Shown here: one piece after another, positions 31,522-46,312 of the stretch | Layout: every line of letters begins with the position of its first letter | Position numbering within the stretch: position 1 is the stretch's first letter | IMG/VR virus record: IMGVR_UViG_3300021180_000001 | Coordinates: 1-54,031 of that record | Origin: a virus | Length of the DNA: 54,031 bases | Strand: one strand, 5' to 3' | Position numbers and translations under genes: made by a program | The notes under the pieces: generated by a model | Seen by the model: the letters and a program-made list of their open reading frames with translations, nothing else | What the model was told of the DNA's origin: nothing | Databases searched by the model: none

Positions 31522-32397
31522 ATGAAAGATGGTTTCTTAAAAGTTAGAAAAACAGGAATTGGCGGTAGCGATATCGGGGCAATCATGGGTGAAAATAAAA
31601 ATAAGAGCGCTTATGAAGTTTATTTAGATAAGACAGAGGAAGTAGAGATTCAATGTGAGGATAATGAGCCTATTGTGTGGGGAAATTTATTAGAAGATCC
31701 AATTTCCACACGATATGAACAATTGACTAATAAGGAACAAATTTTTGTAACTGATACTTTTAGGCATCCTAAATATCCATTTTTAATTGCTCACCCGGAT
31801 AGGATTATGCCTATAGAAAAAAAAGGATTAGAAATAAAAACTGCAGGATTTATGTCGAGGGACTTATGGGGAGAAAGTGGGTCTCAACAAATTCCAACTC
31901 ATTATTATCTCCAAATTGCTCATTATATGTTGGTTCTGGACTATGATTCTTGGGACATAGCTGTTTTGATAGGAGGACAAGAATTAAGGATTTATACCTT
32001 TGAAAGGCTTAAAGAAGCCGATGATATTATCTTAGAAAATGGTATAAACTTTTGGGAAAATCATGTTTTAAAGCGTAATCCTCCTACTTTGGAAAATATT
32101 AATTCAAAAACAGTTGAATTTCTTAAAAAAAGATATAAACTAGTTTCTCCTGAAATTGTTCCTTTTGGAGATAATCTTTTCCAATGGAGAGATATATGGC
32201 TAGAAGCCAAAGAACTTGTGAAACGATATCAAAATCAAGTTGATATTGCCCAGGCTCATTTGTTAGAAGCCATGAAGGAAGCTGGAAGAGGAAATTTTAG
32301 TGATGGGAGTTCTTTTGTTAGAAAATTGGTCAAGGCAAAAGAATATATGGTTAAAGAAAGAGAGTATGTACGTTTTGAATTTAGAAAAGGAGGCTGA
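31522..32397 (+). CDS. YqaJ-type viral recombinase (exonuclease)
   Basis: The 291-residue protein begins with the YqaJ signature [12 protein letters not shown] (12-23). It then shows a PD-(D/E)xK core with Asp93 (HPDRIMP) and Glu104-x-Lys106 (LEIKTAG), followed by [10 protein letters not shown]. Such enzymes resect double-strand ends 5' to 3' to leave tails for an annealing protein. A RecT-like gene follows 250 bases on, the usual partner. An AGGT site precedes the ATG. Confidence 0.85.
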
Positions 32398-32398
32398 A

Positions 32399-32644
32399 AT
32401 GTTAATTTTAACTAGGAATATAGGACAATCTATCAAAATTGGAGATGATATAACTGTAATGATTTTAGATGTCAGGGGAAAGCAAGTTCGAATAGGGGTA
32501 TCTGCTCCAGATCGGATAGAAGTTCATAGAGAAGAAATTTATAGGAGAATTCAAACGGATAAATTAAAGACGGCGGAAGATAAGGCTAAGGAATTAGCAG
32601 AGTTATATTTTCCGGTTCCAAATTCTAAACCATCTGATATTTAA
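32399..32644 (+). CDS. csrA: CsrA/RsmA-type RNA-binding regulator
   Basis: The 81-residue protein begins [17 protein letters not shown] and contains [10 protein letters not shown] and [11 protein letters not shown], the full CsrA pattern. The RNA-contact residues Leu4, Arg6 and Arg44 are kept. CsrA dimers bind GGA in message leaders and repress or stabilise host transcripts. It is preceded by a perfect AAGGAGG five bases from the ATG, overlapping the exonuclease's end. The C-terminal tail (residues 55-81) is longer than in E. coli CsrA. Confidence 0.92.
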
Positions 32645-36367: not shown

Positions 36368-36567
36368 TGAAGATAGTATGTCAAAATTGTCATTCATCAG
36401 ATTTTATAGAAGTATCTAGCACAATGAAATTGGAAGATTTTGTAAATGATTTCGAACATAAGTATTATACCTTAATCTGTAATAAATGTAAGATATATAC
36501 AGAGTTAGATGGTAAGGATAGAATTGAACAGCAAAAGGTAATAGGAGAGAAAAATGGTTCACTTTGA
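36367..36567 (+). CDS. Zinc-ribbon protein
   Basis: The 66-residue protein has CQNC near residue 5 and CNKC near residue 38, the spacing of a small zinc ribbon. The strands between them fit. It overlaps the AAA+ gene that follows by 14 bases. Confidence 0.6.
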   Translation: MKIVCQNCHSSDFIEVSSTMKLEDFVNDFEHKYYTLICNKCKIYTELDGKDRIEQQKVIGEKNGSL

Positions 36568-37477
36568 AGAATTAAATGACGGAAGTAATAAAAGGAAAGT
36601 ATTATTTAATCAACAAAATTCTGTAAAATCGTTAATAAAAGACTTTATAGATGCCAGATGGCCTGTTCTGATAGAAGGTCCTACTGGAATAGGTAAGAAT
36701 TATCTTGTAGAAGTTCTTGCGGAAGAAGAATCTAAAAAAATTATCCGAGTAAATTTGAATGTAAATGTTTCTCAGGAAGACTTATGGGGCCAAAATGTCC
36801 TCATTAAAGATGGAGAAGCATCTATTATTAAATTTAAAGATGGACCTGTAGTAAATGCTATTAAGAATGGATATTGGCTTTTATTAGATGAAATAAATGC
36901 TGCATTGCCAGAAGTATTGTTTTCATTACATGCGTTATTAGAAAGAAATAAGAAAGAAATTTATGTTCCAATTTTACAAGATAATTTACAGGTTCACGAA
37001 GAGTTCAGAGTTATAGCAACTATGAATCCATCTGATGAATATTTTGGAACTAGAAGTCTAAATCAGGCATTCTTAAGTAGATTTATGATAGTTGAAATGG
37101 GAATTCCTTCATTATCAGATATGGCCATTATACTAAAAGAATTTTATACAGATAAAGAAATAGAGACGACTGTTTTTGTGTTGACAAAGTTAATAGGGGA
37201 GTTAAATAACTGGAAAATTAAAATGAATATCTCTATTAGAGATTTTGAAAAAGTTCTAGTTTTGTTGAAGACAGATGGATTGTATATATCAGATCACTTA
37301 GCCTCTATATTTAGAGATTATATTAGATTACTTCCAGAAAAAGCTCTAGAAACTTTTAATAAAAATAAATTTGAAAAAAATGAAAAAGAAATGGGAGCTT
37401 TAGGAAAATTCCTAAAAAATCCAGAAAAATATATAAGTTTGATTGAAATGCTTGAAAAATCTATGGAAAAATCATGA
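36554..37477 (+). CDS. MoxR/CobS-like AAA+ ATPase
   Basis: The 307-residue protein has a Walker A GPTGIGKN at 42-49, Walker B WLLLDE at 108-113, a sensor strand VIATMNPS and an SRF arginine-finger region. The Walker A ends in Asn instead of Ser/Thr, which is unusual and may weaken magnesium binding. MoxR-type ATPases work with VWA proteins to remodel or insert cofactors into targets, and the next gene encodes such a partner, overlapping by four bases. AGGAG precedes the ATG. Confidence 0.8.
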   Translation: MVHFEELNDGSNKRKVLFNQQNSVKSLIKDFIDARWPVLIEGPTGIGKNYLVEVLAEEESKKIIRVNLNVNVSQEDLWGQNVLIKDGEASIIKFKDGPVVNAIKNGYWLLLDEINAALPEVLFSLHALLERNKKEIYVPILQDNLQVHEEFRVIATMNPSDEYFGTRSLNQAFLSRFMIVEMGIPSLSDMAIILKEFYTDKEIETTVFVLTKLIGELNNWKIKMNISIRDFEKVLVLLKTDGLYISDHLASIFRDYIRLLPEKALETFNKNKFEKNEKEMGALGKFLKNPEKYISLIEMLEKSMEKS

Positions 37478-38328
37478 ATCCAACTATACTTTTGAAATTA
37501 AGGAAATTATTCCAAGTTAATACAGCACCATTATTATTAGCTGGACAACCACGCGGAAAAACTATCAGCAGTTTTTGTTTAGGAAAGGCTTTAGTTAATT
37601 CTAAAAATATTTATAATAGATTTATAGATAAAACATTAGAAGAAACTTATAAGGTTGTTATATTAATTGATGCAAGTGGTAGCAGAACTAATGGGCATCC
37701 TTCCGAAAAAGATAGTAAACATATAACCAAGCAAATAATAGAAATGTATTATAGTTTAAAAATAATTGTTGGAAAAGAGAATTTAAAAATTTATTTATTT
37801 AATCGAGTAATTGAAGAAGCATCAAAAATATTAGGGATAAAAATATTTTCTTATACAAACATTAGAGAGTTTACTATGGATTTAGGAGTAAAACAAGCAG
37901 AAGAAGCGAATAAAAAATTATGTCATTGGATGATTATGAAAAATGGAAGAGAAGGAGCTAATTGTGGTGGGAATCATGATGGATATGCCTTAGATTTTAT
38001 TTCTAAGCTTATGTGGTGGGGAAGTTTACCGAATAATAGAAAGTTAATTATTCATATTTCCGATGGACGACCTTCTTGTGATTATCCACATTGTGGATTA
38101 CCTGGATGTTTTCAGAGTACTGAAGAATTAGAAATAGATTATAAATATGTTGTTAAAAATTTATTAGAAAATAAGTTTAAATTATGTGGTTTAGGAGTAG
38201 ATAGAGAAATGGATGAATATTATGGAAAGGAAAATTGTGTGGAAACAAGTGAAAAACCTCAGAAAATGTTGGAAGATTTTATAGAATTATTTTCAAGTCA
38301 GATTAAGGAAAATAGGAGAAGTGTATGA
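37474..38328 (+). CDS. VWA-domain partner of the AAA+ ATPase
   Basis: The 284-residue protein has the MIDAS motif DASGS at 66-70, a later conserved region ANCGGNHDGYALDF and HISDGRPSCD. This is the arrangement of CobT-like VWA proteins. The ATGA overlap with the ATPase makes a two-gene module. The phage target is unknown. Confidence 0.75.
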   Translation: MNPTILLKLRKLFQVNTAPLLLAGQPRGKTISSFCLGKALVNSKNIYNRFIDKTLEETYKVVILIDASGSRTNGHPSEKDSKHITKQIIEMYYSLKIIVGKENLKIYLFNRVIEEASKILGIKIFSYTNIREFTMDLGVKQAEEANKKLCHWMIMKNGREGANCGGNHDGYALDFISKLMWWGSLPNNRKLIIHISDGRPSCDYPHCGLPGCFQSTEELEIDYKYVVKNLLENKFKLCGLGVDREMDEYYGKENCVETSEKPQKMLEDFIELFSSQIKENRRSV

Positions 38329-41157: not shown

Positions 41158-41183
41158 GAGTAAAAAATAATGGCTTACAAAAA
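41158..41183 (+). repeat. Echo of the 41663 gene start
   Basis: This 26-base stretch is identical to 41651-41676, the leader and first codons of the DUF5681-like gene. Here it runs into a stop after eight codons (MAYKNRGK). A degenerate copy lies at 41381-41410. The copies flank the first two array genes. Confidence 0.8.
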
Positions 41184-41196
41184 TAGAGGTAAATAA

Positions 41197-41376
41197 GTGA
41201 GCTATTATTTTCTTTTTCGCTTTGGTTGTGGTGAAGGAAATTACTTTAGTAATGGTGATGGATATGGAAATGGTTATGGTTATGATAGTGATTTATGGGT
41301 CTATGATGACAATGGCTTTGATAATAACAGTGGTGGTGATAATGGGTATGGAGATGGTGACATAGTATGCGATTAA
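41197..41376 (+). CDS. Array member 1
   Basis: The 59-residue protein uses a GTG start after AGAGGT. It reads MSYYFLFRFGCGEGNYF then GDGYGNGYG repeats and ends DGDIVCD. The stop lies in the ATGCGATTAA junction, but the frame started there (MRLNCSRIKNNDL) is truncated after 13 codons. Confidence 0.6.
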   Translation: MSYYFLFRFGCGEGNYFSNGDGYGNGYGYDSDLWVYDDNGFDNNSGGDNGYGDGDIVCD

Positions 41377-41423
41377 ATTGTTCAAGAATAAAAAATAATG
41401 ATTTATAAAAGGAATATTGGCAT

Positions 41424-41633
41424 ATGCTATTAAATTATTTTGATGGCTTTGAATTTGTCTGGCGTATTGGTTGTGGTTATGACTATAGTGATATTAATTG
41501 GTTTGGCAATGGCTTTGGAAATGGTAGTGGGTATGGATTTCCCTTTAATAGTGGTGATGGTTTTGGGAATGGTGATTATGGAGACGGAATTGGCTATGAC
41601 TGTGATGATATAGTATGCGAAATGGCGATATAA
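41424..41633 (+). CDS. Array member 2
   Basis: The 69-residue protein begins MLLNYFDGFEFVWRIGCG, then GNGFGNGSGYG repeats. It ends CDDIVCEMAI, since its terminal junction is altered (GCGAAATGG). Confidence 0.65.
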   Translation: MLLNYFDGFEFVWRIGCGYDYSDINWFGNGFGNGSGYGFPFNSGDGFGNGDYGDGIGYDCDDIVCEMAI

Positions 41634-41662
41634 TATGCAAAGCCATTCAAGAGTAAAAAATA

Positions 41663-42154
41663 ATGGCTTACAAAAAAGGTGAATCTGGTAATCCTTTAGG
41701 CAGACCTGCTGGCCTTGCTGAAATAAATTGGAAGGCGCTAAAAGCGTGTCCTGAAGTAATGGATGAGTTAATTTCCTTAGCTTTAGATAGAGATGTGGAT
41801 AATAAAATAAGAATAGCTGCCATGAAAGAGGTTTTAGATAGAGGAATGGGTAAATCTATTCAATCTATTAGACTTGAGGATAAAACGGTCCAAGAACCAT
41901 CTAAAATGGCTACGCAGGACTTAGAATTGATGCTTCAAGGTGGAATAGATATTCTTAAAGAACAAATACGCCAACAGGTTAAAAGTGAGATTTTAGGTAG
42001 TCAAATGATTATCGAAAAAAAAAGTATTACATCAGATAATAATGTGGTAAGCTACGAAGGTGATGTAGTTAACATAGAAGTTAACGAAAACGAAATGGGT
42101 GAAATGAAACATAGATTGGAATGTAACTTAACAGAGGAGAATAGTCATGAGTAA
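41663..42154 (+). CDS. DUF5681-like protein (possible small terminase)
   Basis: The 163-residue protein starts MAYKKGESGNPLGRPAGLAE, the KGxSGNPxGRPxG signature of DUF5681 proteins, which often sit near phage terminase genes. A helical region VDNKIRIAAMKEVLDRGMGK follows. If it is the small terminase it is far from the large subunit (51858), which would be unusual. It sits inside the glycine-rich array, and its 5' end has been duplicated upstream. Confidence 0.6.
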   Translation: MAYKKGESGNPLGRPAGLAEINWKALKACPEVMDELISLALDRDVDNKIRIAAMKEVLDRGMGKSIQSIRLEDKTVQEPSKMATQDLELMLQGGIDILKEQIRQQVKSEILGSQMIIEKKSITSDNNVVSYEGDVVNIEVNENEMGEMKHRLECNLTEENSHE

Positions 42155-42425
42155 AGAGATATTTATTGCAGTATTGGATAGAGGATGGGTATTCATTGGA
42201 ATAAGAGAAAAAGAAATTATAGAAGGAAAACACGTATGGAGATTAAAAAATTGTCATTGCATTAGGAGATGGGGAACTACCCAAGGAATTGGAGAAATCA
42301 GTATACATGGTCCTACCAAAGAAACAGTTCTCGATAAATGTAATGATTTAGAAATAGGATACAGGTCAGTTATTTTTTGGATAAAGTGTAATCAGGAGAA
42401 ATGGGAAAATATAATATGCAGTTAA
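42147..42425 (+). CDS. Hypothetical protein at array boundary
   Basis: The 92-residue protein overlaps the previous stop by eight bases. It has a Trp- and Cys-containing alpha/beta pattern (DRGWVFIGIREKEIIEGKHV, CHCIRRWGT). Its last ten bases (ATGCAGTTAA) are also the start of the next array gene. A 22-base piece of its 3' end (42397-42418) recurs at 42658-42679. Confidence 0.6.
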   Translation: MSKEIFIAVLDRGWVFIGIREKEIIEGKHVWRLKNCHCIRRWGTTQGIGEISIHGPTKETVLDKCNDLEIGYRSVIFWIKCNQEKWENIICS

Positions 42426-42601
42426 GCAGTCTAGATGGAAATGGCGGCGGCGACGGATATGATAATGGTGATGGATGGGGTTATGGTTGGAGCGATGGAC
42501 GAGGTCGTGGGGATGGATATAGCAGCGATTATGGCTGTGGTTACGGCAGTCTTTCTGGAAATGGTTATGGAGATGGTTGTGGCGAAATAGTATCCGATTA
42601 G
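42416..42601 (+). CDS. Array member 3
   Basis: The 61-residue protein starts at the ATGCAGTTAA junction (MQLSSLDGNGGGDG). It has GWGYGWSDGRGRGDG and CGYGSLSGNGYGDG repeats and ends CGEIVSD. Its Arg content is higher than in most members. Confidence 0.7.
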   Translation: MQLSSLDGNGGGDGYDNGDGWGYGWSDGRGRGDGYSSDYGCGYGSLSGNGYGDGCGEIVSD

Positions 42602-42676
42602 ATGAAGATAATTTTGCTATGGCCATAGTAATGACTGCTGTGGCTATAGAGCCTGACAGAAATGGAAAAATATAAT

Positions 42677-42940
42677 ATGAATTTAAGCTATTTTAATGGT
42701 TATGGATTTATCGGTGATGGTCGCTTTAGCGATAATAATGGCCATAATGATGGTTATGGCTTTAGTAATGGCGATGGATATGGGGACGGTAGTGGGTGTG
42801 GCGGCGATGGCTATGGTGGTGGTTTTGGATTTGGCTATGACTGCGATGGTTATGGAAATGGAAATGGGTATGGATATGGTTTTAGTAATGGTGATGGATG
42901 GGGTTATGGTATCGGTAATGGACCTGGCACATGCGATTAA
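42677..42940 (+). CDS. Array member 4
   Basis: The 87-residue protein begins MNLSYFNGYGFIGDG and carries many NGDGYGDG-type repeats. It ends GPGTCD in an exact ATGCGATTAA junction. An in-frame ATG 15 bases upstream lies in the duplicated leader. Confidence 0.7.
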   Translation: MNLSYFNGYGFIGDGRFSDNNGHNDGYGFSNGDGYGDGSGCGGDGYGGGFGFGYDCDGYGNGNGYGYGFSNGDGWGYGIGNGPGTCD

Positions 42941-43143
42941 GCAGTTTAGATTATTTTTGTGATTTTCATATTAGTCACGAATATGGAAATGGCTATGGAT
43001 GTGGCAGTGATGGTTATGGATTTATCACTGGTCATGGATATGGCAGTCCTTATGGACCTATTTATGGAGATGGCTATGGAGATGGAAATTTCTATGGCAA
43101 CTGCCTTGGTGATGGGCATGGTAATGGCTTTGGATATATATGA
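42931..43143 (+). CDS. Array member 5
   Basis: The 70-residue protein begins MRLSSLDYFCDFHISHEYG, with a start overlapping member 4 by ten bases. The repeats are YGNGYGCGSDGYG and YGDGYGDGN. It ends GFGYI with an ATGA overlap to the next gene. Confidence 0.7.
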   Translation: MRLSSLDYFCDFHISHEYGNGYGCGSDGYGFITGHGYGSPYGPIYGDGYGDGNFYGNCLGDGHGNGFGYI

Positions 43144-43364
43144 GCTTAAGCAGTTTAGATGAGTGGTTGCTGCATGGATATATTCAATATGGATTTAATA
43201 ATGGTGATGGACATGGTAATGGCAGTGGCTATAGTGGCGATGGCTGGGGTGGTGGTTTTCAATATGGTTTTGGCTGTGATGGTTATGGTTGTAGTTATTT
43301 CTTGGGTAATGGATATGGTTGGGGCAATGGTTGGGATGAAAATGTGGATATATTAAAGGAATGA
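43140..43364 (+). CDS. Array member 6
   Basis: The 74-residue protein begins MSLSSLDEWLLHGYIQYG, coupled by ATGA. It carries GDGHGNGSGYSGDGWGGG and ends DENVDILKE, a charged tail unlike the usual CD. Confidence 0.7.
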   Translation: MSLSSLDEWLLHGYIQYGFNNGDGHGNGSGYSGDGWGGGFQYGFGCDGYGCSYFLGNGYGWGNGWDENVDILKE

Positions 43365-43410
43365 TTACGGAAGTGATTTTGGACATAATATAGGATGATG
43401 GCGACATAGT

Positions 43411-43614
43411 ATGCGATTAGATAGTTTTAGTGATGGCTTTGGTGATGGTTATGGATATGCAAATGGCAATGGATATGGAAACGGTGACGATAATACCTGC
43501 TGTGGATATAAAGATTGTGATGGATATAGATATGGAGATGGTTATGGCAGTGGTAGTGGAAATAACTATGGGTTTAATTGTATAGAGGAAAATAACTTTT
43601 GCTTATGCGATTAA
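43411..43614 (+). CDS. Array member 7
   Basis: The 67-residue protein starts at ATGCGATTAG (MRLDSFSDGFGDGYG). It has a Cys pair (NTCCGYKDCDG) and ends NNFCLCD in an exact junction. Confidence 0.7.
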   Translation: MRLDSFSDGFGDGYGYANGNGYGNGDDNTCCGYKDCDGYRYGDGYGSGSGNNYGFNCIEENNFCLCD

Positions 43615-43907
43615 TCACTTTAGAGGACTGGTTACGGAATGATTATAATAAATATGGATATGGTAATGGCGATGGTTATGGTGGTGGATATAAGAGTAAC
43701 AGTGATTTCATTAATTATGATGGATACGGCGACGGAAGTGATTATGGGTTTGGTGACGGTGATGATGGAGATGGCGACGGCGATGGTTATGGATATTTAA
43801 ATGGTGATGGATATGGATATGGATGTGGTTATAGTTCCCAAGGCAATGGCTGGGGCGATGGAGACGAAACCGGATATGGAACTATATGTGGAACTCTATG
43901 CGATTAA
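43605..43907 (+). CDS. Array member 8
   Basis: The 100-residue protein, the longest member, begins MRLITLEDWLRNDYNKYG. It has a run of DDGDGDGDGYGY and ends CGTLCD in an exact ten-base junction. Confidence 0.7.
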   Translation: MRLITLEDWLRNDYNKYGYGNGDGYGGGYKSNSDFINYDGYGDGSDYGFGDGDDGDGDGDGYGYLNGDGYGYGCGYSSQGNGWGDGDETGYGTICGTLCD

Positions 43908-44128
43908 TCTATTTCGATGAATTTGGTTTTGGTGATGGTTTTGACTTTGGTGGTGGCAGTGGCTTTGGCGATAATATTGGAGATGGTTGGGGCTTTGGTG
44001 ATGGATATGTGGTTATGAATAAAAGTTTTGGATGGGGCCTTGGTAACGGTTGTGGAGAAGATAATGGAAATGGCTATGGTGATAGTTACAATGGAGATAA
44101 CGGTGACGGAGACGGACCATGCGATTAA
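43898..44128 (+). CDS. Array member 9
   Basis: The 76-residue protein begins MRLIYFDEFGFGDGFDFG. A non-repeat insert YVVMNKSFGWGLGNG is shared in altered form with member 16. It ends DGPCD in an exact junction. Confidence 0.7.
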   Translation: MRLIYFDEFGFGDGFDFGGGSGFGDNIGDGWGFGDGYVVMNKSFGWGLGNGCGEDNGNGYGDSYNGDNGDGDGPCD

Positions 44129-44358
44129 ATCATTTAGAATATTTTTGCTTTGACTTTTTCCAGGGCTATGGTTTTAAGGATAGTAATTGTCGTGGAAGTG
44201 GTCATGGAAATAGTCATGGAACTGGTTTTGGTGATGGATTGTGTTATGGCCATATTAATGGTAATGGTAATGGGTGCGGTGATGGTTTTAGTGATGGAAA
44301 TGGCTTTGGCGATGGTGAAAATGGAGATGACGGTGATGGAGATGGCGCATGCGATTAA
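44119..44358 (+). CDS. Array member 10
   Basis: The 79-residue protein begins MRLNHLEYFCFDFFQGYGFK. Its pattern GHINGNG-GDGFSDG-GFGDGE-GDDGDGDG is nearly repeated in member 18. It ends DGACD in an exact junction. Confidence 0.7.
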   Translation: MRLNHLEYFCFDFFQGYGFKDSNCRGSGHGNSHGTGFGDGLCYGHINGNGNGCGDGFSDGNGFGDGENGDDGDGDGACD

Positions 44359-44597
44359 TTCATTTCGATGATTTTGGATGTGATGGTTATAGTTTTGGTT
44401 TTGGCGAAGGGTATGGAGTTAAAACTGGTAGCGGATATGGGGACGGTTGGAGATATGGTTATGCTTTTGGAAATGGTTTAGGGGGTGGTTATGGATATGG
44501 ATTTGGTAGTGGTGATGGTGGCATGGATCATGGTGATAGTGGTATGACTTATGGAAATAACTATGGCGATGGATATGGATATGGAGACTTAGTATGA
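44349..44597 (+). CDS. Array member 11
   Basis: The 82-residue protein begins MRLIHFDDFGCDGYSFGFG and has YGYAFGNGLGGGYGYG. It ends YGYGDLV with an ATGA coupling. Confidence 0.7.
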   Translation: MRLIHFDDFGCDGYSFGFGEGYGVKTGSGYGDGWRYGYAFGNGLGGGYGYGFGSGDGGMDHGDSGMTYGNNYGDGYGYGDLV

Positions 44598-44818
44598 GAT
44601 TAAGTAATAATGGTTTTAATCTTAGCTCAGATTGTTTTTATGGATGGAGTGGTAGTGATGGAGCTGGTTGTGGTTATGGGTTTGGTAATGGCGATGGGTG
44701 GGGAGATAGCTGGGAAAGTGGTTTTGGTTTTGGGTATGGTTTTAATGATGGCGATGGTATGGTCTTGAATATGGCTTACGACAGTGGCAATGGAGATGCC
44801 AATATAATATGCGAGTAA
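44594..44818 (+). CDS. Array member 12
   Basis: The 74-residue protein begins MRLSNNGFNLSSDCFYGWSG. It has repeats with Trp (GDGWGDSWESG) and ends ANIICE in a variant junction ATGCGAGTAA. Confidence 0.7.
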   Translation: MRLSNNGFNLSSDCFYGWSGSDGAGCGYGFGNGDGWGDSWESGFGFGYGFNDGDGMVLNMAYDSGNGDANIICE

Positions 44819-45009
44819 GCAATTTAGATGGTGTTGGTAGAGGATATGGATTTAGTGACGGTGATGGTTATGGAGACGGATATGGCTTTGATGGTGATGG
44901 ATATGGCTGTGGCTATGGTTTTGGTGGTGATGGTTTTGGTAAAGGTCATCGATATGGCAATATTTTTAGCGATGATGATGGATATGATTATGAGGATTGG
45001 AACGGATAG
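44809..45009 (+). CDS. Array member 13
   Basis: The 66-residue protein begins MRVSNLDGVGRGYGFSDG in the variant junction. It is very regular (GDGYGDGYGFDGDGYG) and ends YDYEDWNG, breaking the CD rule. Confidence 0.7.
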   Translation: MRVSNLDGVGRGYGFSDGDGYGDGYGFDGDGYGCGYGFGGDGFGKGHRYGNIFSDDDGYDYEDWNG

Positions 45010-45020
45010 GACAGCATAAT

Positions 45021-45257
45021 ATGAAATTAATATATTTTGAAAGTTTTGATTATTGTAGCTGTATTGGTTTCACTGGCTTTGGTGACGGATATGGGTATGG
45101 ATATGGTACTGGTGAGGGAAATGGGCTTAGTGAAGGTCTTACAAATATCTTTGGTAGTAATGGTGATTCATATCGGTATCGATATGGAATAGCATATGCA
45201 ACGCGAGATGGTGATGGTTATGGCATTGGCTATGGAAATGGTTTAGATGATGATTGA
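45021..45257 (+). CDS. Array member 14
   Basis: The 78-residue protein begins MKLIYFESFDYCSCIGFTG; an in-frame ATG 24 bases upstream is possible. It is less repetitive, with a SYRYRYGIAYATRDGDG segment. Confidence 0.6.
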   Translation: MKLIYFESFDYCSCIGFTGFGDGYGYGYGTGEGNGLSEGLTNIFGSNGDSYRYRYGIAYATRDGDGYGIGYGNGLDDD

Positions 45258-45277
45258 TATGGATATGGTGACATAGT

Positions 45278-45394
45278 ATGCAATTAATCCATGGTGATGA
45301 TTATGGAGACGGTTATGGTGATGGCTGGGGAAATGGAAAGATTTGGGGAGATGACAACGATATGGAGATGATGATTATAGGCTTATATCTATGA
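45278..45394 (+). pseudogene. Array member 15, frameshifted remnant
   Basis: It starts at a junction-like ATGCAATTAA (MQLIHGDDYGDGYGDGWG), then leaves the repeat frame near 45362 and stops after 38 residues (MEMMIIGLYL). Downstream DNA keeps array-like composition, so this is a decaying member. Confidence 0.55.
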
Positions 45395-45415
45395 TAATGG
45401 AGATGGCGACATAGC

Positions 45416-45694
45416 ATGCGATTAAATTATTATGATGGCTTTGGATTTGTTTTTGATTGGACTTGTGGCTATGGTTTTGTCGATGGCGATGGCTATGGCT
45501 TTGGTAGTGGGTTTATGGTTCTGAATAAATATTTTATGTGGGGTTATGGTAGCAGTTATGGAGAAGATAATGGAAATGGTTATGGCGATGGATGGGGAGG
45601 TAAACGTGGTTACGGAGATGGAAATGATAACGGTATTGGCGATGGTAATGGAAATGGATTTTGTGACCCAATAGAAATGGCTATAAGATATTAA
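45416..45694 (+). CDS. Array member 16
   Basis: The 92-residue protein begins MRLNYYDGFGFVFDWTCG. FMVLNKYFMWGYGSSYGEDN matches the insert of member 9 (YVVMNKSFGWGLGNGCGEDN). It ends FCDPIEMAIRY, running past the CD position. Confidence 0.7.
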   Translation: MRLNYYDGFGFVFDWTCGYGFVDGDGYGFGSGFMVLNKYFMWGYGSSYGEDNGNGYGDGWGGKRGYGDGNDNGIGDGNGNGFCDPIEMAIRY

Positions 45695-45700
45695 TTTAAT

Positions 45701-45907
45701 ATGCGATTAAATGGCAGCATCTTTATCTTTGGATGTGGTTGGGGTAATGGATTTGGCTACGGCCATAATAATGGCAATGGTCATGGAAATGGTTGTACTT
45801 ATGATAGTTATGCCATAGGAAATAGCTGGGGTGACGGAAGTGGTTTGGGTGACGGCAATAATGACGATGGAAACGGGAATGGAGACGGAAGCACAACATG
45901 GGATTAA
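45701..45907 (+). CDS. Array member 17
   Basis: The 68-residue protein begins MRLNGSIFIFGCGWGNG. The repeats are rich in His and Asn (GHNNGNGHGNG). It ends STTWD in ATGGGATTAA, where one base change alters both genes at once. Confidence 0.7.
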   Translation: MRLNGSIFIFGCGWGNGFGYGHNNGNGHGNGCTYDSYAIGNSWGDGSGLGDGNNDDGNGNGDGSTTWD

Positions 45908-46134
45908 ATTATTTAGATTATTTTTTCTTTGATTTTTACCACGGCTATGGTTTTAAGGATAACCATGGCTATGGAAATAGTCATGGAAATGGCTTGGGTT
46001 ATGGAATTGATTATGGTCATATTAATGGTAATGGTTATGGGGGTGGCGATGGTTTTAGTGATGGATACGGTTTTGGCGATGGTGAAGACGGAGATGACGG
46101 TGATGGAAATGGTAATGGAGACGGTACATATTAA
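45898..46134 (+). CDS. Array member 18
   Basis: The 78-residue protein begins MGLNYLDYFFFDFYHGYGFK. It is a close relative of member 10 through HINGNGYGGGDGFSDG and DGEDGDDGDGNG. It ends NGDGTY. Confidence 0.7.
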   Translation: MGLNYLDYFFFDFYHGYGFKDNHGYGNSHGNGLGYGIDYGHINGNGYGGGDGFSDGYGFGDGEDGDDGDGNGNGDGTY

Positions 46135-46135
46135 T

Positions 46136-46312
46136 ATGCGATTAAATTATTTCCATGACTTTCACTTTATTGGTTCTGGGTATGGCTATGGATTTCATGG
46201 TGGTGATGGTCTTGGAAATGGTATGGGTTATGGAAATAGTGAGGGAGAAGGCTGGGGTGATGGCGAAGAAGATGTTGGTAATTGTGGTGGATGTGGTAAT
46301 ATGGAATGGTGA
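46136..46312 (+). CDS. Array member 19 (last)
   Basis: The 58-residue protein begins MRLNYFHDFHFIGSGYGYG. It has a Cys-containing tail (GNCGGCGNMEW) and no downstream array junction; the next gene is a tiny hydrophobic peptide. Confidence 0.7.
   Translation: MRLNYFHDFHFIGSGYGYGFHGGDGLGNGMGYGNSEGEGWGDGEEDVGNCGGCGNMEW

Follow-up and report, generated by a model that had tools for sequence, protein, structure and literature searches.

The viral DNA of IMG/VR record IMGVR_UViG_3300021180_000001 (54,031 nucleotides, analysed whole and termed the window) carries on its + strand, at 41197-46312, an array of 19 short open reading frames (ORFs), overlapping or closely spaced and with a mean length of 72 amino acids. 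They encode low-complexity peptides in which glycine alternates with another residue, here called GX peptides. GX genes recur in other phages and prophages, and it is well supported that a GX gene and a partner gene of the DUF6948 superfamily constitute a near-obligate two-gene module. The window array is interpreted as a tandemly amplified, accessory form of this module, which may act as a scaffold or condensate composed of an LSm-fold protein and GX peptides; the probability of this reading is put at about 0.4.

An all-against-all comparison of genes neighbouring GX genes singled out one family that recurs beside them, encoded on the strand of the GX gene and in most cases overlapping its start. 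It consists of DUF6948 and related subfamilies, and profile-profile comparison places the four subfamilies in one superfamily. Partners were called with hidden Markov models of these four subfamilies, and 16 GX loci cut at an edge were left out of 104 evaluable. The partner lies directly upstream of the GX gene in 85/104 loci (the commonest overlap is 13 nt), within 2.5 kb in 9 and fused in 1, i.e. it is fused, adjacent or near in 95/104; 9 loci have none. In the reverse direction, loci found by the partner alone contain a GX gene in 66 of 69 unique evaluable cases. One of the three exceptions (L434) shares its contig with locus L536, in which the partner is followed by two irregular Gly-rich peptides. 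Neither a partner nor a GX gene occurred in a control set of 119 unselected viral loci (1.03 Mb); these controls are unrelated matches of the window junction pattern ATGCGATTAA, which is not specific. In the window the partner ends at 42425 and the third GX gene starts at 42416 or 42401, so that here too the pair overlaps, and such overlap makes translational coupling probable. The initial annotation recognized a real array but missed the partner gene that explains its context. PHROG 18306, to which GX peptides align at positions 54-138 and DUF6948 proteins in the adjacent part at 144-232, looks like a GX-DUF6948 fusion family judging from these alignments; the window peptides do not match it.

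DUF6948 (PF22253) is catalogued as a domain without an assigned function, and would gain a defined partner and a fold. Pfam describes the domain only, and the descriptions found mention neither a near-obligate GX partner nor fusions nor an LSm-like fold. Nothing relevant on GX peptides, DUF6948 or phage condensates was present in the open-access literature (subscription literature was outside the search), and the two-gene module is, provisionally, apparently undescribed.

What kind of protein is the partner? By sequence comparison the window protein is a clear member of the DUF6948 superfamily. It is 42% and 45% identical to the partners in L085 and L257, and is matched at 2.2e-33 by the model termed A5, of whose 71 rows it is itself one. 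Of its 71 close relatives, 38 match PF22253 with E values no higher than 0.1, the best being 2.6e-9; a scan with the window protein alone found no close relatives. With the 71 relatives, AlphaFold2 gives a model with a predicted local distance difference test (pLDDT) score of 95, with a helix inserted between strands, and two partner subfamilies are predicted to have one confident fold in common. In a Foldseek comparison with the PDB, the 50 matches listed for the window partner are Sm/LSm proteins or Sm-bearing spliceosomes, two titles excepted. The matches include PDB 3by7, a protein of Sm-like fold from a marine metagenome (E 0.016, 15% identity) and of putative cyanophage origin, and matches in BFVD include DUF6948 proteins and a cyanophage Sm-like protein. 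In the natural fusion of both parts, locus L027, the DUF6948 domain modelled separately again has Sm/LSm proteins as top Foldseek matches, and the GX tail, with pLDDT 40-55, is predicted to be disordered. The fold is well supported as a confident prediction, and the consistent Foldseek ranking favours an LSm-like one, although agreement with the five-stranded Sm-type barrel stands at E 6e-3 or worse and a TM score of ~0.5.

GX genes were sought elsewhere by scanning viral contigs and bacterial genomes with a degenerate DNA pattern for the GX core, and the counts are lower bounds. Viral contigs with genes for (GX)n peptides, typically ~89 amino acids long, number well above 100 at the least, mostly with a single such gene in each genome, and matches also occur in bacterial genomes (phages and prophages). 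The two-gene combination of an LSm-type fold and a low-complexity peptide recurs in many phages and prophages across distant bacteria. Tyr accounts for 40% of the X residues, Asp for 28%, Asn for 16% and Ser for 11%; the main X alphabet is D/N/Y in 45 and D/S/Y in 35 of 123 peptides (80/123 together). Other arrays have 3-5 copies: five in L463 and L464, five around the partner gene in L465 and four in L466. Their terminal tags are array-specific, e.g. MNIKISRG, MGLKAFLKFG...EPNLTSAGATVVEE and MSSVKLVG...TVSTSTRRR. The earlier view that no phage system is organized like this does not hold, as only the size of the window array, the largest of those seen, is unusual.

Several GX loci carry additional domains. 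In L439, L054 and L082 the GX core is fused, at its N-terminal side, to a domain of 'CRGFQYEVGKTY' type. A short domain with a GACxDGV motif precedes the core in L259, L033, L049, L087, L098 and L320, mostly together with the third partner subfamily, and in the gut-type loci L258, L279, L283, L329 and L108 a further C-terminal domain, ...YGGETIKKL..., follows the GX region. An annotated phage protein of VMVM repeats (L130:3111-3401, MW202566) is probably a GX-type gene in the wrong frame.

The features of the window array are as follows.

41197..41376, + strand: GX gene 1, 59 amino acids, GTG start, without the MRL motif; 5' end probably degenerate
41367..41408, + strand: GX gene-start remnant read from the sequence, ATGCGATTAA..., MRLNC..., stop after 13 codons
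41424..41633, + strand: GX gene 2, 69 amino acids
41663..42154, + strand: DUF5681-like gene, overlaps the partner gene start; PF18932 E 6.1e-5, below the curated cut-off
42147..42425, + strand: LSm-fold partner gene, 92 amino acids, RGW subfamily of the DUF6948 (PF22253) superfamily
42416..42601, + strand: GX gene 3, overlaps the partner gene end; start MQLSSLD, in-frame ATG upstream at 42401
42677..42940, + strand: GX gene 4, start MNLSYFN, in-frame ATG upstream at 42662
42931..43143, + strand: GX gene 5, 10-nt overlap with gene 4
43140..43364, + strand: GX gene 6, 4-nt overlap with gene 5
43411..43614, + strand: GX gene 7
43605..43907, + strand: GX gene 8, 100 amino acids, 10-nt overlap
43898..44128, + strand: GX gene 9, 10-nt overlap, paralogue of gene 16
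44119..44358, + strand: GX gene 10, 10-nt overlap, closest paralogue of gene 18 (84% DNA identity)
44349..44597, + strand: GX gene 11, 10-nt overlap
44594..44818, + strand: GX gene 12, 4-nt overlap
44809..45009, + strand: GX gene 13, 10-nt overlap
45021..45257, + strand: GX gene 14
45278..45394, + strand: GX gene 15, 38 amino acids, probably truncated
45416..45694, + strand: GX gene 16
45701..45907, + strand: GX gene 17
45898..46134, + strand: GX gene 18, 10-nt overlap
46136..46312, + strand: GX gene 19

The description of the region as a 19-gene array stands insofar as there are 19 short ORFs with a shared start, but GX genes 1 and 15 have a degenerate appearance and the interval also encloses two genes without repeats, the DUF5681-like gene, which belongs to the neighbourhood and lies outside the module, and the partner gene. 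Similarly, a conserved end of the peptides, as first proposed, is seen as Cys-Asp-stop but for the most part reflects how the following gene begins: GX genes overlap by 10 nt at seven junctions (and by 4 nt at two more), and at the 10-nt junctions ATGCGATTAA or a close variant ends one gene with Cys-Asp-stop and starts its successor with Met-Arg-Leu. GTAAAAAATAATGGCTTACAAAAA, with which the DUF5681-like gene starts, is present twice in the window, at 41160-41186 and 41655-41681, which suggests a duplication involving GX genes 1 and 2. No Rfam RNA was found in the array region; promoter-like sites are not above chance, and terminator-like sites are few and only slightly above chance.

Are the GX ORFs genes at all? 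An untranslated repeat expansion with apparent genes arising by chance could be envisaged, as the DNA is of low complexity with a 6-nt period and alternative frames are partly open too. Shine-Dalgarno matches of at least 4 nt, however, precede 9/19 GX starts compared with 11.5% of 331 other ATGs of the region (permutation p < 1e-4). The ratio of non-synonymous to synonymous differences (pN/pS), computed in the coding frame, is 0.51 for the duplicate pair 10/18 and 0.58 for the pair 9/16 (p ~0.03 each), where a dN/dS near 1 had been named as the sign of non-coding expansion. These values point, modestly, to moderate purifying selection between duplicates. One alternative frame of one pair is also low in pN/pS, so that the test is not enough by itself to settle the frame. 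Stronger support for coding comes from other phages, where the GX core is joined in frame to the DUF6948 domain (L027) and conserved tags flank many GX cores. Together with the fixed overlap with the partner gene, these findings make non-coding expansion exceedingly improbable. On the Shine-Dalgarno enrichment, the pN/pS values and the L027 fusion, the window ORFs very probably encode separate, translated low-complexity peptides, as was originally proposed, and these are compatible with sticky or condensate-forming proteins.

Pooled over the 19 peptides, Gly makes up 30% of residues, Asp 13%, Tyr 10%, Asn 9% and Phe 7%; aromatics come to 19%, and the net charge per peptide lies between -6 and -15. 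Gly occupies every second residue far beyond what composition would give (lag-2 z = +19.4, lag-1 z = -12.5), and the pattern GGNGAYGGNTAYGG has 17 matches (0 in the reversed control). The N-terminal consensus is M-R-L-[NSI]-[YSH]-[LF]-[DE]-x-F, with L3 in 17/19 and F9 in 10/19. A composition rich in Gly, Asp and Asn might point to calcium-binding repeats of RTX or EF-hand-like type, and a metal-binding role had been suggested. The RTX nonapeptide GGxGxDxU, however, does not occur in the 19 peptides, the commonest X is Tyr, and Asn is replaceable by Ser, so that calcium binding is hardly credible.

Natural variation indicates what is maintained in the GX core. In ten records of Rheinheimera Barba phages, flanks of ~740 bp are identical and the core differs by a 6-nt step or by substitution. 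In a further Barba record (L394) the core is thoroughly rearranged between flanks that are 99.7% identical. The matched partner stretch is identical in the Barba records despite the changes in the core. Composition is thus conserved but the succession of X residues is almost unconstrained, and this suggests that a bulk property of the GX chain matters. A diversity-generating retroelement was considered as a source of variation in the window and rejected, as there is no RVT_1 match in the whole record.

Variation in gene content is equally informative. Relatedness of the capsid protein to that of the window defined a set of sister phages, 20 records in all (a terminase-based scan of IMG/VR found no related phages). 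Any form of the module is present in 2 of these 20, at positions other than in the window: one has a DUF6948-type partner with a GX gene, the other an RGW-type partner with two irregular peptides. This patchy presence implies that the module is accessory, gained or lost at different sites; the window array probably arose by local duplication, which would raise peptide dose and variety. It also bears on whether the peptides form a virion component, i.e. a sticky coat, capsid decoration or DNA matrix, as was considered at the outset. The composition looks adhesive and the module is beside tail genes in Pectobacterium phage Koroua. Most sister phages with similar capsid proteins nevertheless lack it, the Koroua module is on the recombination-gene strand, opposite the tail genes, and in Barba phages the module is between the DNA polymerase and exonuclease genes. 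A structural role in the virion is therefore very unlikely.

How might the module work? Gene A specifies a small protein of the DUF6948 superfamily, predicted to be a beta-barrel of Sm/LSm-type fold. Gene B usually begins before the end of A, so that translation of the two is probably coupled, and specifies a (Gly-X)n peptide predicted to be disordered, with X being Tyr or Asp plus Asn or Ser, and with a short lineage-specific tag at the N-terminal and sometimes the C-terminal end. The LSm-fold protein may oligomerize as LSm proteins do and engage the tag or the GX chains. These chains would act by bulk properties, with regularly spaced Tyr 'stickers' in a background of Gly, Asp, Asn and Ser, and together with an LSm-type ring might form a multivalent scaffold or condensate. 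Early in infection the module would bind or sequester a host factor, RNA or DNA, in the service of counter-defence or host takeover, and in the window phage local duplication would have increased the dose and variety of the peptide.

Several points weigh against this scheme. The peptides, their interaction with the partner, RNA binding and phase separation are all predicted. The window partner is not itself recognized by Pfam, and no PDB entry significantly matches its profile; the Foldseek E values are weak (best 6e-3, TM score ~0.5), so that the likeness to LSm proteins is one of predicted fold and not of demonstrated homology. Many small barrels of LSm type do not bind RNA, and the isoelectric point of the partner is about neutral (median 7.6; 8.3 in the window), not strikingly basic. 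Early expression is inferred from gene position alone, and the scheme does not account for an advantage of 19 copies over one.

The pairing of the predicted components is reminiscent of eukaryotic RNA granules. Lsm4 and SmB/SmD1 are Sm/LSm proteins with low-complexity tails that occur in ribonucleoprotein granules, and the likeness consists of an LSm-type barrel together with a Gly-rich or other low-complexity segment. They differ in that the phage low-complexity part is normally a gene of its own and is acidic and rich in Tyr and Asp instead of Arg/Gly or Gln/Asn; RNA binding by the partner would be by analogy. FUS and hnRNPA1 have prion-like low-complexity domains, which GX peptides resemble in Gly content, regularly spaced aromatics, polar spacers and a residue order that is not conserved. 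GX peptides, in contrast, are strictly Gly-X alternating, contain little Arg, are viral and are encoded by separate short genes. A more far-reaching proposal, that an LSm-like ring and a prion-like Gly-Tyr/Asp peptide constitute a widespread phage granule system forming early nucleic-acid condensates, in which arrays amplify the scaffold, is doubtful. If the granule idea is right, bacterial viruses would have arrived at the set of components found in eukaryotic RNA granules.

The main rival to a scaffold or condensate is a counter-defence pair that functions without condensation. Here the LSm-fold protein would inhibit or sponge a host immune protein or signal, with the GX peptide as flexible partner, decoy or chaperone. 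Many properties fit: the module is small, accessory and patchy among sister phages, resides in the recombination/early gene region, has a rapidly varying GX core, is amplified in some phages and has exchangeable subtypes within one phage group. In one sister phage it is beside a patatin-like gene. On the other hand, a specific inhibitor is not expected to tolerate a scrambled main chain, and neither partner nor GX proteins match PADLOC models, a library that covers defence and not counter-defence proteins. Counter-defence without condensation is accordingly regarded as unlikely; if correct, it would represent a common, unrecognized anti-defence family. Two small overlapping genes of kept order and high mobility also bring to mind a toxin-antitoxin-like or feedback pair, one part harming or silencing the host and the other neutralizing it. 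Yet arrays have a single LSm-fold gene for 4-19 GX genes, the two parts are naturally fused in L027, and there is no family resemblance to known toxins, which renders such a pair improbable. The preferred reading, an LSm-fold and GX-peptide scaffold or condensate, is open to experiment, as the cultured Rheinheimera Barba phages, with their sequenced natural variants, make the module directly testable.

Genes near the module function mainly in DNA metabolism: exonuclease, RecT, methyltransferases, DNA polymerase, HNH endonucleases and helix-turn-helix (HTH) regulators. In Pectobacterium phage Koroua the neighbours include SSB, Erf and exonuclease; other examples are RecE/Bet in phiPLPE and the DNA polymerase and exonuclease genes on either side of the module in Barba1A. 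This location with recombination and replication genes suggests early action. Published transcriptomes of Barba18A (PMC9305737) fall into two temporal clusters, with replication genes assigned to the first.

Other neighbouring genes deserve mention. In a sister phage (L536:5068-6093) the module has a patatin-like phospholipase gene immediately downstream and, beyond it, a GroES-like gene recognized by eye. At 36554-38328 of the window, upstream of the array, a MoxR/CobS-like AAA ATPase gene precedes a gene that looks by eye to be of VWA type (no PHROG match). An association of the module with a MoxR/VWA pair was not supported, with 1/200 loci in a single-sequence search; DUF2201 VWA-like proteins account for 4/102 ORFs near partner genes. 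The window also encodes, at 32387-32644, a homologue of the carbon storage regulator CsrA, situated between RecE-like and RecT-like genes.

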